In this document: positions 18,600 to 21,718 of the stretch, one piece after another
Layout: every line of letters begins with the position of its first letter
Position numbering within the stretch: position 1 is the stretch's first letter
NCBI RefSeq assembly: GCF_026712245.1
Contig: NZ_JAPPUY010000004.1
Location: forward strand, 372,001-436,000
Direction of reading: 5' to 3'
DNA length: 64,000 nucleotides
DNA from: Roseateles hydrophilus
GTDB taxonomy: Bacteria; Pseudomonadota; Gammaproteobacteria; Burkholderiales; Burkholderiaceae_C
The notes under the pieces: generated by a model
Databases searched by the model: none
Told to the model about the DNA's origin: nothing
The model's input: the letters and a program-made list of their open reading frames with translations, nothing else
Position numbers and translations under genes: made by a program

Positions 18600-18656
18600 G
18601 ACCAACGTGAAAGTGAGCGGACGCCGAAGGCGGTCCGCTCCAATGGCAGGTTAGCC
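18600..18656 (-). repeat. attC-like site 1 (terminal site of the cassette array)
   Basis: 57-bp imperfect palindrome. One end is GTTAGCC (18650-18656, on the plus strand) and the other GACCAAC. The centre folds as GAGCGGACGCC against GGCGGTCCGCTC with one extra unpaired base, a hallmark of integron attC sites. Its backbone matches attC 3: both read AACCTG, then CGGAC, GGCG, CCGCTCAC and TTTCACGTT on the minus strand. It lies at the end of the cassette gene 18651-19208, whose TAA stop is in the site. Confidence 0.68.
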
Positions 18657-19208
18657 GTCATTGCGGGGAACCTGTGGCAAGAGCTCTGCATACGCATCTC
18701 GCGCTTCCCTAAGCGTTGCGTCTGAATGCGCGGCTCGGAATACCTTGATGGCTTCCGCCTCGTGCCGTGCGGCAACGGCTTGGAGCACGCCAATGGGGAC
18801 AGATCGGCCACTCTTGAGAGCAACGTTCGGATGGTCGGGGTTCCAAGTTCCCCAATCGAGGGTGCGTGGGAAGGCTCCCCACTTCGCGCGCTCAAAGTTG
18901 CAAACGAAGCCACGTGCTTTCTCCAGCTCGAGGAAGCGACAGCGCTCACACTTAGCCGGGACGAATACCTTGCTGGTGTAGTGCTCGGTTTCGACGATCA
19001 CCGGGTCAGTTGGCCCTCTCACTGGGCACGGGCCATGATCGAGTGCGAGATACCCATGGACCTGCTCCATGGCGCGAGTGCATCCACCTTCAAACATGTT
19101 CTCGCAGGCGCGGCACTTGGCAGGTATCGCCCCGGTCATGAAGTGCGAATATGGAACGGGCTGGAGTGAGCCGACGACGACGCATCGGGGAATGGCGGTC
19201 CGATACAT
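18651..19208 (-). CDS. Cassette-encoded Cys-rich protein, unknown function
   Basis: 185 residues, no family recognised. Cysteines cluster in pairs: KCRACEN (about 31-37), GGCTR, GPCPVRG, then KCERCRFLE (about 82-90) and GFVCNFE, suggesting one or two zinc or iron sites. Soluble, with no signal or membrane segment. The ATG lies three bases beyond a GTTAGCC core and the stop is inside attC 1, the tight fit expected of an integron cassette. Base composition is visibly less GC-rich than the surrounding core genes. An internal start at 19139 is possible. Confidence 0.65.
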   Translation of the reverse strand: MYRTAIPRCVVVGSLQPVPYSHFMTGAIPAKCRACENMFEGGCTRAMEQVHGYLALDHGPCPVRGPTDPVIVETEHYTSKVFVPAKCERCRFLELEKARGFVCNFERAKWGAFPRTLDWGTWNPDHPNVALKSGRSVPIGVLQAVAARHEAEAIKVFRAAHSDATLREARDAYAELLPQVPRNDG

Positions 19209-19211
19209 GAC

Positions 19212-19224
19212 GGCTAACGAATGA
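19212..19224 (-). repeat. attC-like site 2, part on the left of the insertion sequence
   Basis: Sequence GGCTAACGAATGA. It carries one core (GTTAGCC on the minus strand), three bases before the ATG of the cassette gene at 19208. The rest of the site is at 20708-20765, on the other side of the IS. Joined at the shared GA, the two parts give a 69-bp site with perfect 7-bp outer arms. Confidence 0.7.
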
Positions 19225-19230
19225 AAGGGA

Positions 19231-19241
19231 CTTCCCCGTCC
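19231..19241 (+). repeat. Left subterminal inverted repeat of the IS
   Basis: CTTCCCCGTCC, an exact inverted copy of 20689-20699. It starts six bases inside the left boundary. A second partial copy of this motif (GGGGAAGTCC, 19318-19327) lies just ahead of the transposase ATG and overlaps its ribosome site. Confidence 0.75.
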
Positions 19242-19327
19242 CGAACTAGCCGCGTTGCGGCAAACGGCAACCAGGTGCCACGATGGGAAGTGCGATCTCT
19301 CATCAACTCATCCGGAAGGGGAAGTCC

Positions 19328-20344
19328 ATGACGATTCTGACCGTGGGTATCGACCTCGCCAAGAACGTTGTTGCGGTTCATGGCGTCAACGAGGCCGGCA
19401 AGGCCGAACTGATCCGGCCGGCGGTGCCGCGCGACAAGCTCCACGAGCTCATCGCCAGCCTGCCACCGTGTGTCATCGGCATGGAGGCCTGCTCCGGCGC
19501 CCACCACTGGGCGCGGCTGTTCCAGGCCTCGGGCCACACCGTGCGGCTGATCGCACCGAAGTTCGTCACGCCTTACCGCATGACGGGCAAGCGCGGCAAG
19601 AACGACGCCGCCGACGCTGCAGCGATCTGCGAGGCCATCCAGCGGCCCCACATGCGCTTCGTGCCGCTCAAGAACCTCGAACAGCAGTCGCGCCTGATGG
19701 TGCACCGCGCCCGCCAGGGGTTTGTCGAGCAGCGCACCGCCACGATCAACCGCATCCGCGGCTTGCTCAGCGAGTTCGGCATCGTGCTGCCGCTCAAGGC
19801 CGCCACCGTGCGCCGCCGGGCCTGCGAGTGCCTGGAAGAGCTGCCGGGCCACGCCAACACCGTCATCGGCGACCTGCTCAGCGAGGTCACCCACCTGGAC
19901 GAGCGCATTGCGCAGTACGACGCCCACATCCAGGCCATGGCCAAGGACGACGAGCGAGCCCGGCGGCTGATGCAGCTCGGCGGCGTGGGGCCCACCACGG
20001 CCACCTGCCTGCTGGCCATGATCGGCAACGGGCACGACTTCGATTGCGGCCGCCAGTTCGCCGCTTGGCTGGGCCTGACGCCGGGCCAGTACAGCTCGGG
20101 TGGCAAAACCCGGCTCGGGCGCATCACCAAGGCCGGCGACGCCTACCTGCGCAGCCTGCTTGTACTGGGCGCCAAGGCGCTGCTGGCCGCCGCCAAGAAC
20201 AAGGCCGACCCCGTCAGCCGCTGGGCCCTCGCCTTGGCTGAGCGGCGCGGCTACTGGCGGGCCGTGGTGGCCATCGCAGCCAAGAACGCACGCATGGCCT
20301 GGGCGGTCCTGCGGCGCGGCGATGAGTTCGTGCTGCCTGCTTGA
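19328..20344 (+). CDS. IS110-family transposase (DEDD type)
   Basis: 338 residues, full length for the family. The N-terminal RuvC-like DEDD domain shows VGIDLAKN (Asp about residue 8), GMEACSGAHHWAR (Glu about 58) and KNDAADAAAICEA (Asp about 93-96). The C-terminal Tnp_20 domain has GVGPTTATCLLAMIG and a catalytic-serine-type segment YSSGGKTRLGRITK. The chosen ATG follows GGAAGGGGAAG; an upstream ATG at 19283 is less likely. No frameshift or stop, so it may be active. It reads opposite to the cassette genes. Confidence 0.93.
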   Translation: MTILTVGIDLAKNVVAVHGVNEAGKAELIRPAVPRDKLHELIASLPPCVIGMEACSGAHHWARLFQASGHTVRLIAPKFVTPYRMTGKRGKNDAADAAAICEAIQRPHMRFVPLKNLEQQSRLMVHRARQGFVEQRTATINRIRGLLSEFGIVLPLKAATVRRRACECLEELPGHANTVIGDLLSEVTHLDERIAQYDAHIQAMAKDDERARRLMQLGGVGPTTATCLLAMIGNGHDFDCGRQFAAWLGLTPGQYSSGGKTRLGRITKAGDAYLRSLLVLGAKALLAAAKNKADPVSRWALALAERRGYWRAVVAIAAKNARMAWAVLRRGDEFVLPA

Positions 20345-20688
20345 CCCAATCCGACCCGACTCACCACACACCGAAGCCAGAGAAACACAGAACCACCGCC
20401 GTGTGACGGCAAGCGTTGATGACAACAGGTTTGGACCTGCGCGGGGCGTGACCGATGAATTCAAGGGCGGCGCAAGCTTGCCGGCTAACGAATGGGTCCC
20501 CCGCGTGCGTCCTTCATCAGGGTCCGTGGCATCGAACGCCACATCGATGACCGTTTGTAGTTTGGCCAGTCCGCACCTTGTTGTTCTTCTCGCCAGCCCA
20601 CGCTAACGCCACGGTGGCAGGTCTAGAAGGGAATGCAGATGAAGAAATGGCCCGCACGGCGGGCCATCAGGGATTCGTTTGGCTTGAC
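20345..20688 (+). ncRNA. Candidate bridge RNA / seekRNA in the IS right end
   Basis: 344 non-coding bases after the transposase, where IS1111-group elements encode their guide RNA. Bases 20482-20494 (CGGCTAACGAATG) are identical to the 13 bases of target flank at 19211-19223. They sit inside a loop closed by GATGAA (from about 20453) and TTCATC (about 20513-20518). Further hairpins follow: GTGGC/GCCAC near 20526-20542 and a perfect 9-bp stem at 20647-20667. TTGTAG at 20555-20560 also occurs at the element's right end and could be a donor guide. RNA boundaries are not determined. Confidence 0.6.
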
Positions 20689-20699
20689 GGACGGGGAAG
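20689..20699 (-). repeat. Right subterminal inverted repeat of the IS
   Basis: GGACGGGGAAG on the plus strand, the exact reverse complement of 19231-19241. It lies eight bases inside the right boundary, so the two repeats sit at slightly different distances from the ends, as in IS1111-group elements. Confidence 0.75.
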
Positions 20700-20707
20700 C
20701 CCTTGTA

Positions 20708-20765
20708 GAGCTGAGCCGCGAGCGGCGGCTTGCCGACGCGAGTCGGCTCGAGCGATTGGTTAGCC
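20708..20765 (-). repeat. attC-like site 2, part on the right of the insertion sequence
   Basis: Contains the second core GTTAGCC (20759-20765) and the central folds CGGC/GCCG and GCCGAC/GTCGGC. With the IS removed, the left arm GGCTAACGAATGAGCTGAGCCG pairs against the right arm CGGCTCGAGCGATTGGTTAGCC: 7 bp outside, AAT/ATT, then GAGCCG/CGGCTC. Both arms are 22 bases long. That agreement is the basis for placing the IS ends. Confidence 0.7.
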
Positions 20766-20779
20766 GCCATTCTCACGCA

Positions 20780-21163
20780 CTAGCCGAATAGGGCAACAAG
20801 CCCGGTCGTCGCGCCGAAAACTAAGAAGGCCAGGAGCACTAGAAGTGCCCACTTGGCGCGGTGCGAGTTCCCAGGCGCAAAAGGGCTTTCGCCCTTCCTC
20901 TTCTGTTTCAAAAGCGCTTGCAGCTTGGCCGGCTCCACGTAGTTCCAGAGGCAGCCGCAGTTCGTGCACGCGACGAACCCCTGATCTCCCAGAACAACGA
21001 CTGATCGGCGAATTGCGGTGAACTTCAGGTTTTCTGGAAAGAAGCGTCCGTTGAACCTTTCATCCTCGTCCGATGCAACAAGACTGCCCTTGACGACAGC
21101 GTCACCAGCACAGGACGGGCACTTGATATCTGCGACCGATTCGTTGGGCATACAAGCAGCCAT
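20780..21163 (-). CDS. Cassette-encoded zinc-ribbon protein with C-terminal membrane anchor
   Basis: 127 residues. A zinc ribbon is formed by KCPSCAG (about 15-21) and ACTNCGCLWNY (about 69-79). The C-terminus is a single membrane helix (AKWALLVLLAFLVFG, then ATTGLVALFG). No family recognised. The ATG lies three bases after a GTTAGCC core and the stop is 14 bases before attC 2, which fits a complete cassette. Longer in-frame starts upstream read through attC 3 and are rejected. Composition is lower in GC than the core genes. Confidence 0.65.
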   Translation of the reverse strand: MAACMPNESVADIKCPSCAGDAVVKGSLVASDEDERFNGRFFPENLKFTAIRRSVVVLGDQGFVACTNCGCLWNYVEPAKLQALLKQKRKGESPFAPGNSHRAKWALLVLLAFLVFGATTGLVALFG

Positions 21164-21166
21164 GAC

Positions 21167-21225
21167 GGCTAACGTGAAAGGTGAGCGGCGCCACGCAGTG
21201 GCGTCCGTTCTAGCGACAGGTTCTC
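21167..21225 (-). repeat. attC-like site 3
   Basis: About 59 bp. One core is GTTAGCC on the minus strand (21167-21173); the outer core, near 21219-21225, is degenerate. The stem pairs CGCCAC with GTGGCG around GCA, then GAGCGG with CCGTTC through an unpaired T. The backbone matches attC 1. An open frame on the minus strand reads right through it, ending with a TAG inside GTTAGCC. Confidence 0.65.
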
Positions 21226-21390
21226 TGGAGCTTCTGCGGGGCACGCTCGAACGGGGTTTTGCGCACCGCTCTGTGCACAAAACAGCCTACGCAAGGCTGA
21301 TACGTTCACGCTGCGTTGCTGGCTCGTCCGCACCAAGCTCGCTTGGGCGTGCGCGCCTGCTACGCAGCGCAAGCTAGCAGTTTTTCGATG

Positions 21391-21406
21391 CTGTATAAAC
21401 ATACAG
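21391..21406. promoter_or_regulatory. LexA-like box (CTGT-N8-ACAG)
   Basis: CTGTATAAACATACAG, a perfect proteobacterial LexA consensus with an AT-rich centre. Integrase promoters of integrons are often LexA-controlled, and this lies where intI would begin. No SOS gene follows on either strand. Given base composition, a chance match somewhere in the window is not unlikely, so this is tentative. Confidence 0.38.
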
Positions 21407-21718
21407 TCTTTCGATTATCCTGTTAGGTTTGCTGCAGCAGATGATCAAGGGAACGTGTTTTCGGGAGACACCCACTGCTGCTTAAGCAGGAACGGTGCGC
21501 CACAACACACCGCCGGTTGAATGCTGCAAGCACTTGACGCATCAGCAGTTTCCAAAAATATCGACGGGCGAAACGGTCATTAAATTTCCGACAAAAGCGG
21601 CGCGTTGTAACAAGTTCTCTTCGCCCGAAGAACGGCGTCTGTCGTTCGCAAATGATGCCAGCCCCCCGTTCGCACGAACTCGGTGAAAACTGCCGTGCGC
21701 CCGCCCGGGCATCTGACG

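Follow-up and report, generated by a model that had tools for sequence, protein, structure and literature searches.

The window (the whole 64,000-nucleotide stretch of Roseateles hydrophilus DNA analysed here) carries an insertion sequence that, through its transposase and a guide RNA encoded downstream of it, very probably selects integron attC sites. The element is placed in the IS1111 group of the IS110 family and, judged by its sequence, would work like ISKpn4 and ISPst6. A first-pass annotation of this DNA had proposed an IS1111-type guide RNA 3' of the transposase and aimed at attC, and comparison with relatives supports the proposal well, through a test of guides against flanks, a conserved fold, and a covariance model (R1). 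Across these relatives, the fold is conserved with compensatory changes and the guides follow their flanks from element to element. That cassette arrays are the element's "intended niche", as the annotation put it, is an interpretation.

seekRNA-guided attC targeting has been shown for ISKpn4 and ISPst6 and predicted for ISPa25 (PMC11187229, in excerpt), so neither attC targeting nor a guide RNA for attC is new. Compared with the window element by description only, all three likewise belong to the IS1111 group, with the non-coding region downstream of the transposase gene and an attC target, and share the IS1111 seekRNA order in which the top-strand match lies 5' of the bottom-strand match (PMC11187229, in excerpt). 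RNA binding and movement have been shown for ISKpn4 and ISPst6, whereas the window element is known from sequence alone. ISEc11 has been retargeted by changing only the RNA and the flanks (PMC11187229, in excerpt), and bridge RNAs are predicted in 93.0% of IS1111 elements (PMC11208160, in excerpt). Tetu and Holmes (2008) and Post and Hall (2009) are cited in the excerpted PMC12444791 in its references only. The present comparison shows that a further lineage obeys the guide logic for which ISKpn4 and ISPst6 have provided the demonstration; added here are several natural changes of guide class and, relative to those two elements and ISPa25, handshake-like bases and a copy of the donor end that tracks the IS end in 74/75 elements.

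Because uninterrupted sites of three target types set its limits, the element is assigned to 19220-20708. These sites (insertion point marked by a slash) are an attC in another genome (L186, GACCTAACG/TTGAAATTC, compared with copy L003), an IS66 transposase gene (L190, TATATG/TGGGTC, compared with L064), and a transposon-end-like sequence that we take to be a Tn3-type end (L191, CTTAGCG/TACGATTTTTTCC, compared with L076). All three assign the A preceding ATG and the TAG following TTG to the insert, which in the window begins with the A at 19220 and closes with the TAG ending at 20708; one shared G makes 19219-20707 equally possible. The end motifs of relatives are AATGAAAGGGACTTCCCC (left) and GGGGAAGCCCTTGTAG (right), both variable, and were used in place of an automatic search for the longest inverted repeat, which gave wrong ends at many loci.

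Several features of the IS1111 group are present: subterminal inverted repeats of 14 bases, 13 of them matching; a long non-coding region 3' of the transposase (20345-20708); and, in the transposase translation, GLTPGQYSSG, an instance of the C-terminal motif GL-P----S(T)G that is a trait of the group (PMC11187229, in excerpt). The IS110-family domains DEDD (64.1 bits, cut-off 29) and Transposase_20 (91.3 bits, cut-off 21.3) both score above cut-off. Beyond the right repeat, IS1111 elements have an extension of 3 bases. Their left extension is 7 bases (PMC11187229, in excerpt). The lengths expected on the two sides are not found in the window element, where the empty sites give 8 bases on the left and 6 on the right, or 9 and 5 if the shared G is assigned to the other end; the difference may depend on where the repeat is taken to begin and end.

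Joined in a circle, the ends would read TTGTAG/AATGAAAG and would create a promoter, TTGACG-16-TAGAAT, for transposase and RNA. Predicted end junctions contain TAGAAT in 72/76 cases and match the -35 at a mean of 4.79/6 positions, against 2.79/6 in shuffles. An active promoter at the ISEc11 circle junction has been mentioned (PMC11187229, in excerpt).

Table 1. Features of the insertion sequence, its RNA and its target in the window.
Feature	Position	Strand	Basis
Whole insertion sequence, 1489 bp	19220..20708	+	Empty sites of three target types; end motifs common to relatives
Left half of interrupted attC, last base the shared G	19211..19219	+	
Left subterminal inverted repeat GGACTTCCCCGTCC	19228..19241	+	Sequence; 13/14 complementary to 20689-20702
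Transposase, 353 aa; alternative start 19328 possible	19283..20344	+	DEDD and Transposase_20 domains
Conserved folded RNA (seekRNA / bridge RNA)	20412..20571	+	Covariance model R1, covariation
Outer conserved stem TGATG (20417-20421) / CATCA (20515-20519)	20417..20519	+	98.9% of cells paired
Right-target guide GATGAATTCAA, specifies TTGAATTCATC on top strand	20454..20464	+	Group-wide test, 0/20,000 shuffles
Left-target guide CGGCTAACG, bottom-strand pairing	20482..20490	+	Group-wide test, 0/20,000 shuffles
AATG, the element's own left end; possible handshake bases	20491..20494	+	Boundary from empty sites
TTTGTAG, copy of right terminus; probable left-donor guide	20554..20560	+	Follows IS end 74/75
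Bases after donor copy, often like start of right target half; possible handshake bases	20561..20564	+	
Possible -35 TTGACG, junction promoter with TAG 20706-20708 and AAT 19220-19222	20684..20689	+	Activity inferred
Right subterminal inverted repeat GGACGGGGAAGCCC	20689..20702	+	Sequence
Remainder of interrupted attC	20709..20766	+	Only this stretch common to other genomes, beside unrelated sequence

The proposal of a guide RNA began with a 13-base identity between 20482-20494 and 19211-19223. The identity is exact, and CGGCTAACGAATG has no other occurrence in the window. The accompanying statement that the target copy ends at the insertion point is wrong: the insert starts at 19220, and because the element limits are set by uninterrupted sites, the 13 bases divide into 9 of target and 4 (AATG) of the element's own left end. 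When the 43-base flank is compared with the non-coding end (344 bases), a shared run of at least 13 bases arises in 1/5000 dinucleotide shuffles, whereas the 9-base target match alone arises in 203/5000 and is weak. Since nine bases alone are unremarkable, the case rests on comparison among elements.

That comparison scored guides in a fixed register against their own and against swapped flanks, over 75 elements in 29 guide groups. Left guides score 5.31/7 on their own flanks and 3.98 on swapped ones, and right guides 5.55/9 against 3.64; for each, 0/20,000 shuffles score as high, kinship among elements being only partly removed in these shuffles. Other representatives give the same result. 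Restricted to the 17 groups with a left half ending otherwise than in TAACG, of which a few (with CCAACG) remain attC-like, the test gives 5.35 against 3.58 for the left guide and 6.41 against 3.64 for the right (0/20,000 for each). The expectation that the loop should vary with each insertion flank is thus confirmed for both guides. The alternative of a chance match, or of one that follows from the element's end bases, could appeal to the four bases of the element's own end and to the frequency of the nine-base match in shuffles, but the group-wide result for either guide leaves it extremely improbable.

Individual scores vary. Left scores are 7 in 11 elements, 6 in 41, 5 in 15, 4 in 4, and 2 in 4; right scores span 1 to 9, are 4 or lower in 31/75, and are low across much of the attC group. 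Strong fits outside attC include L064 and L065 (IS66-type site), L020, and L043, each with 6/7 and 9/9, and L016 with 7/7 and 8/9. Poor fits are L055 (left 2/7), L057 (left 5/7, right 3/9), L126, L108, and L115, in part owing to a one-base shift of register in some rows. Outside the panel, the left guide of ISShdy1 matches its flank TTTCGCG over 7 bases, and its right end was not found with the end motif. The panel joins a set of 60 elements and another of 77 (loci without anchor or end left out) in a union of 83, reduced to 75 by dropping L031, L049, L075, L081, L039, two duplicates, and one element whose right flank was too short. Scoring guides at free offsets diluted the signal, and the fixed-register score with guide groups took its place; single-linkage target clusters merged 67/78 elements, and the resulting 11-cluster test still gave 0/5000 shuffles.

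In the window, one loop holds both a segment equal to the left target half (20482-20490) and a segment complementary to the right half (20454-20464). The left guide matches its own flank at 7/7 positions of the scored part. The right guide matches its own flank at 1/9 in register, against 5/9 for a related empty attC. Segments matching both target strands, as expected of a seekRNA or bridge RNA, are found group-wide; in the window the right side is weak.

Recurrence of the same 13 bases in relatives at unrelated sites had been named as evidence against a guide. For the most part, relatives at other sites carry other guides (e.g., L016, L020, L043, L064, L065, L066, L076, and L117); the exceptions are L161, the copies in genome G283, L055, and L057. 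L161 keeps the attC-group left guide and left half; its right half differs, and its right guide has changed to match, as if half re-aimed. The four G283 copies (L124-L127) share one guide at four sites with imperfect left halves (4-5/7), which suggests relaxed targeting.

The RNA itself is recognizable as a conserved structure, where its absence would have spoken against a guide. RNAalifold on 38 relatives yields 29 pairs, 15 with changes on both sides. In the consensus fold 98.7% of cells are paired, and 0/500 shuffles are as high on any of five measures, a test biased towards this structure, which came from the same alignment. Variation is almost absent from the outer stem (4/5 pairs never vary), so that helix by itself has little covariation support. 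The loop closed by GATGAA/TTCATC that the annotation described can be drawn in the window sequence alone and does not hold in the 38 relatives, with 67.1% of cells paired against 67.7% in shuffles and no compensatory change. With GATGAA a second guide begins, the one directed at the right target half; the 3' side of the proposed stem has a conserved partner elsewhere, TGATG at 20417-20421 pairing with CATCA at 20515-20519.

Model R1, built from 37 sequences, has a single match in the window (20412-20571, 152.6 bits) and three in the genome, one for each full copy. Outside the window and its overlap L166, it matches 54/63 sources (E up to 1), none of the 63 being a row of the training alignment. 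The sources without a match are L034, L053, L062, L067, L084, L138, L163, L182, and L191, the last two without a relative. The weakest full-length matches include two viral-contig relatives with transposases 45-46% identical. All 26 loci compared have the main match 40-132 bases 3' of the transposase match, and three plasmid loci added later all match. The covariance scan that the annotation suggested therefore succeeds with R1, while no Rfam family reaches its gathering score anywhere in the window; the suggested folding of the non-coding end, done on that end alone, gives ordinary stability (z 0.21). These two results count against the guide-RNA reading, as do the 1/9 right half of the window and the poor fits.

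The fold also bears on whether the copy could be an attC-like decoy or landing site read by an integron integrase. An integron integrase scores above cut-off in the same genome (on another contig, C7), and the copy resembles the end of an attC core. The slot is unpaired in the conserved fold, however, and relatives at other targets carry other sequences in it, so that a decoy is scarcely credible.

A tree of 64 different transposases, made by a quick method (four proteins shorter than 300 aa left out; L032 in the wrong frame, on a very long branch), relates guides to protein history. With guide classes labelled by rules of our own, the attC-guide label changes 5 times against 19.6 in shuffles, starred branches forcing at least 3 changes, and three guide classes change 8 times. 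On this tree, guide class has apparently been inherited within clades, yet changed several times. The clustering of target class on the tree is what would be seen if the transposase protein alone recognised attC and the copy in the non-coding end were incidental. Such recognition gives the RNA no reason to spell the target, though, and guides fit flanks over many targets and change class several times within related transposases; we regard it as very improbable. RNA guidance remains the preferred reading, and the relatives look naturally re-aimed to other targets, an indication that small guide changes let one family pass between integron sites and transposon ends.

Insertions in transposon-end-like sequence comprise L038, L044, L045, L052, L058-L061, L066, L069, L072, and L076, with guides that fit those ends; several of these relatives are on Enterobacteria plasmids. 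IS4321 and IS5075 are IS1111 elements in Tn21-family ends, and the IS4321 transposase is 36.3% identical to that of the window element, among the matches listed. When L064 2600-2860 was searched against plasmids, most matches were to element sequence, and the flank alone was then used.

The second region of the RNA holds a copy of the element's right terminus. Copy and IS end agree in all elements except L057, with TTGTAG in both places in 59/75 and TTATAG in both in 15/75 (L027, where no donor site was found, was dropped). TTATAG occurs in an enterobacterial clade and in L033, set apart on the tree; copy and terminus therefore changed together in two lineages. Donor-copy variation is limited to TTG/TTA, the handshake signal is moderate, and a left-end guide was noticed by eye only. 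The likeness of the bases after the donor copy to the beginning of the right target half is reached in 2 to 50 of 20,000 shuffles, depending on the measure; in the window copy they do not match (TTTG vs AGCT).

Handshake guides are described in IS621 (PMC11208158, in excerpt), and AATG may by analogy play that part here. IS621 and IS110 bridge RNAs likewise have target guides, a donor guide, and partner-fitting bases (PMC11208160 and PMC11208158, in excerpt). The RNA lies upstream in the IS110 group, whereas that of the window element lies downstream, with its donor part in a separate region. Many predicted IS1111 bridge RNAs have donor-binding bases in a multiloop (PMC11208160, in excerpt), and the donor arrangement is therefore predicted in kind. 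A search of listings of open-licence papers found no paper on the donor part of the RNA in this element's lineage.

On balance, the RNA of this clade probably copies both product junctions, left half plus left end and right end plus right-half start. It would then be a full IS1111 bridge RNA, with target guides, donor guide, and handshake bases, and the clade a set of natural re-aimings among attC, transposon ends, an IS66 gene, and other sites via two short segments. The RNA would pair with the left half on its bottom strand and with the right half on its top strand, its second region would read the joined ends, and the bases after each guide would assist pairing of the exchanged strands, as the handshake bases do in IS621. 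The 75 elements with matched guides, targets, and ends offer a basis for IS1111 pairing rules, donor side included.

Elsewhere in the host genome (4.77 Mb, 13 contigs), another contig holds two further full copies with 98 and 99% identity; each of the three follows directly after CTAACG. These copies and the empty attCs L183 and L186 share one fixed insertion position in attC. The attC remainder is matched in 18/120 genomes, its own included; outside its own genome the match covers only about the first 65 of 467 bases, as expected for a cassette site. Flanking open frames lie on the minus strand (18651-19208 and 20780-21280, the latter with a possible internal start). A strict attC finder reported 0 sites for the window sequence (of 20 shuffles, a single one gave 2 and the other 19 gave 0), and an inverted-repeat search was unhelpful for two of three attC stretches; neither is used as evidence. 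Searches with the window's left cassette and the right flank of L003 returned short attC or element matches only and no uninterrupted copy of either junction.

At the right junction (20706-20717) the window reads TAG/AGCTGAGCC, with TTGA absent after the element, where uninterrupted attCs of relatives read AACGTTGAAGCTGAGCC; in place of AGCTGAGCC these have TTGAAGCTGAGCC. The right-half mismatch reflects either four bases lost after insertion or an attC that differed from the start.

The two further full copies (L002 and L003, contig C10) lie about 2.0 kb apart at neighbouring attC-like sites, and nearby sequence in L002 is similar to window 21180-21560 read in reverse complement. From the 5' end of the element there is also a short fragment (L004, contig C9:11177), which likewise follows CCTAACG. 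In genome G183 (contig C2), four copies (L132-L135) stand in one orientation, two of the three intervals being exactly 2381 bases, as if element plus cassette had been tandemly repeated.
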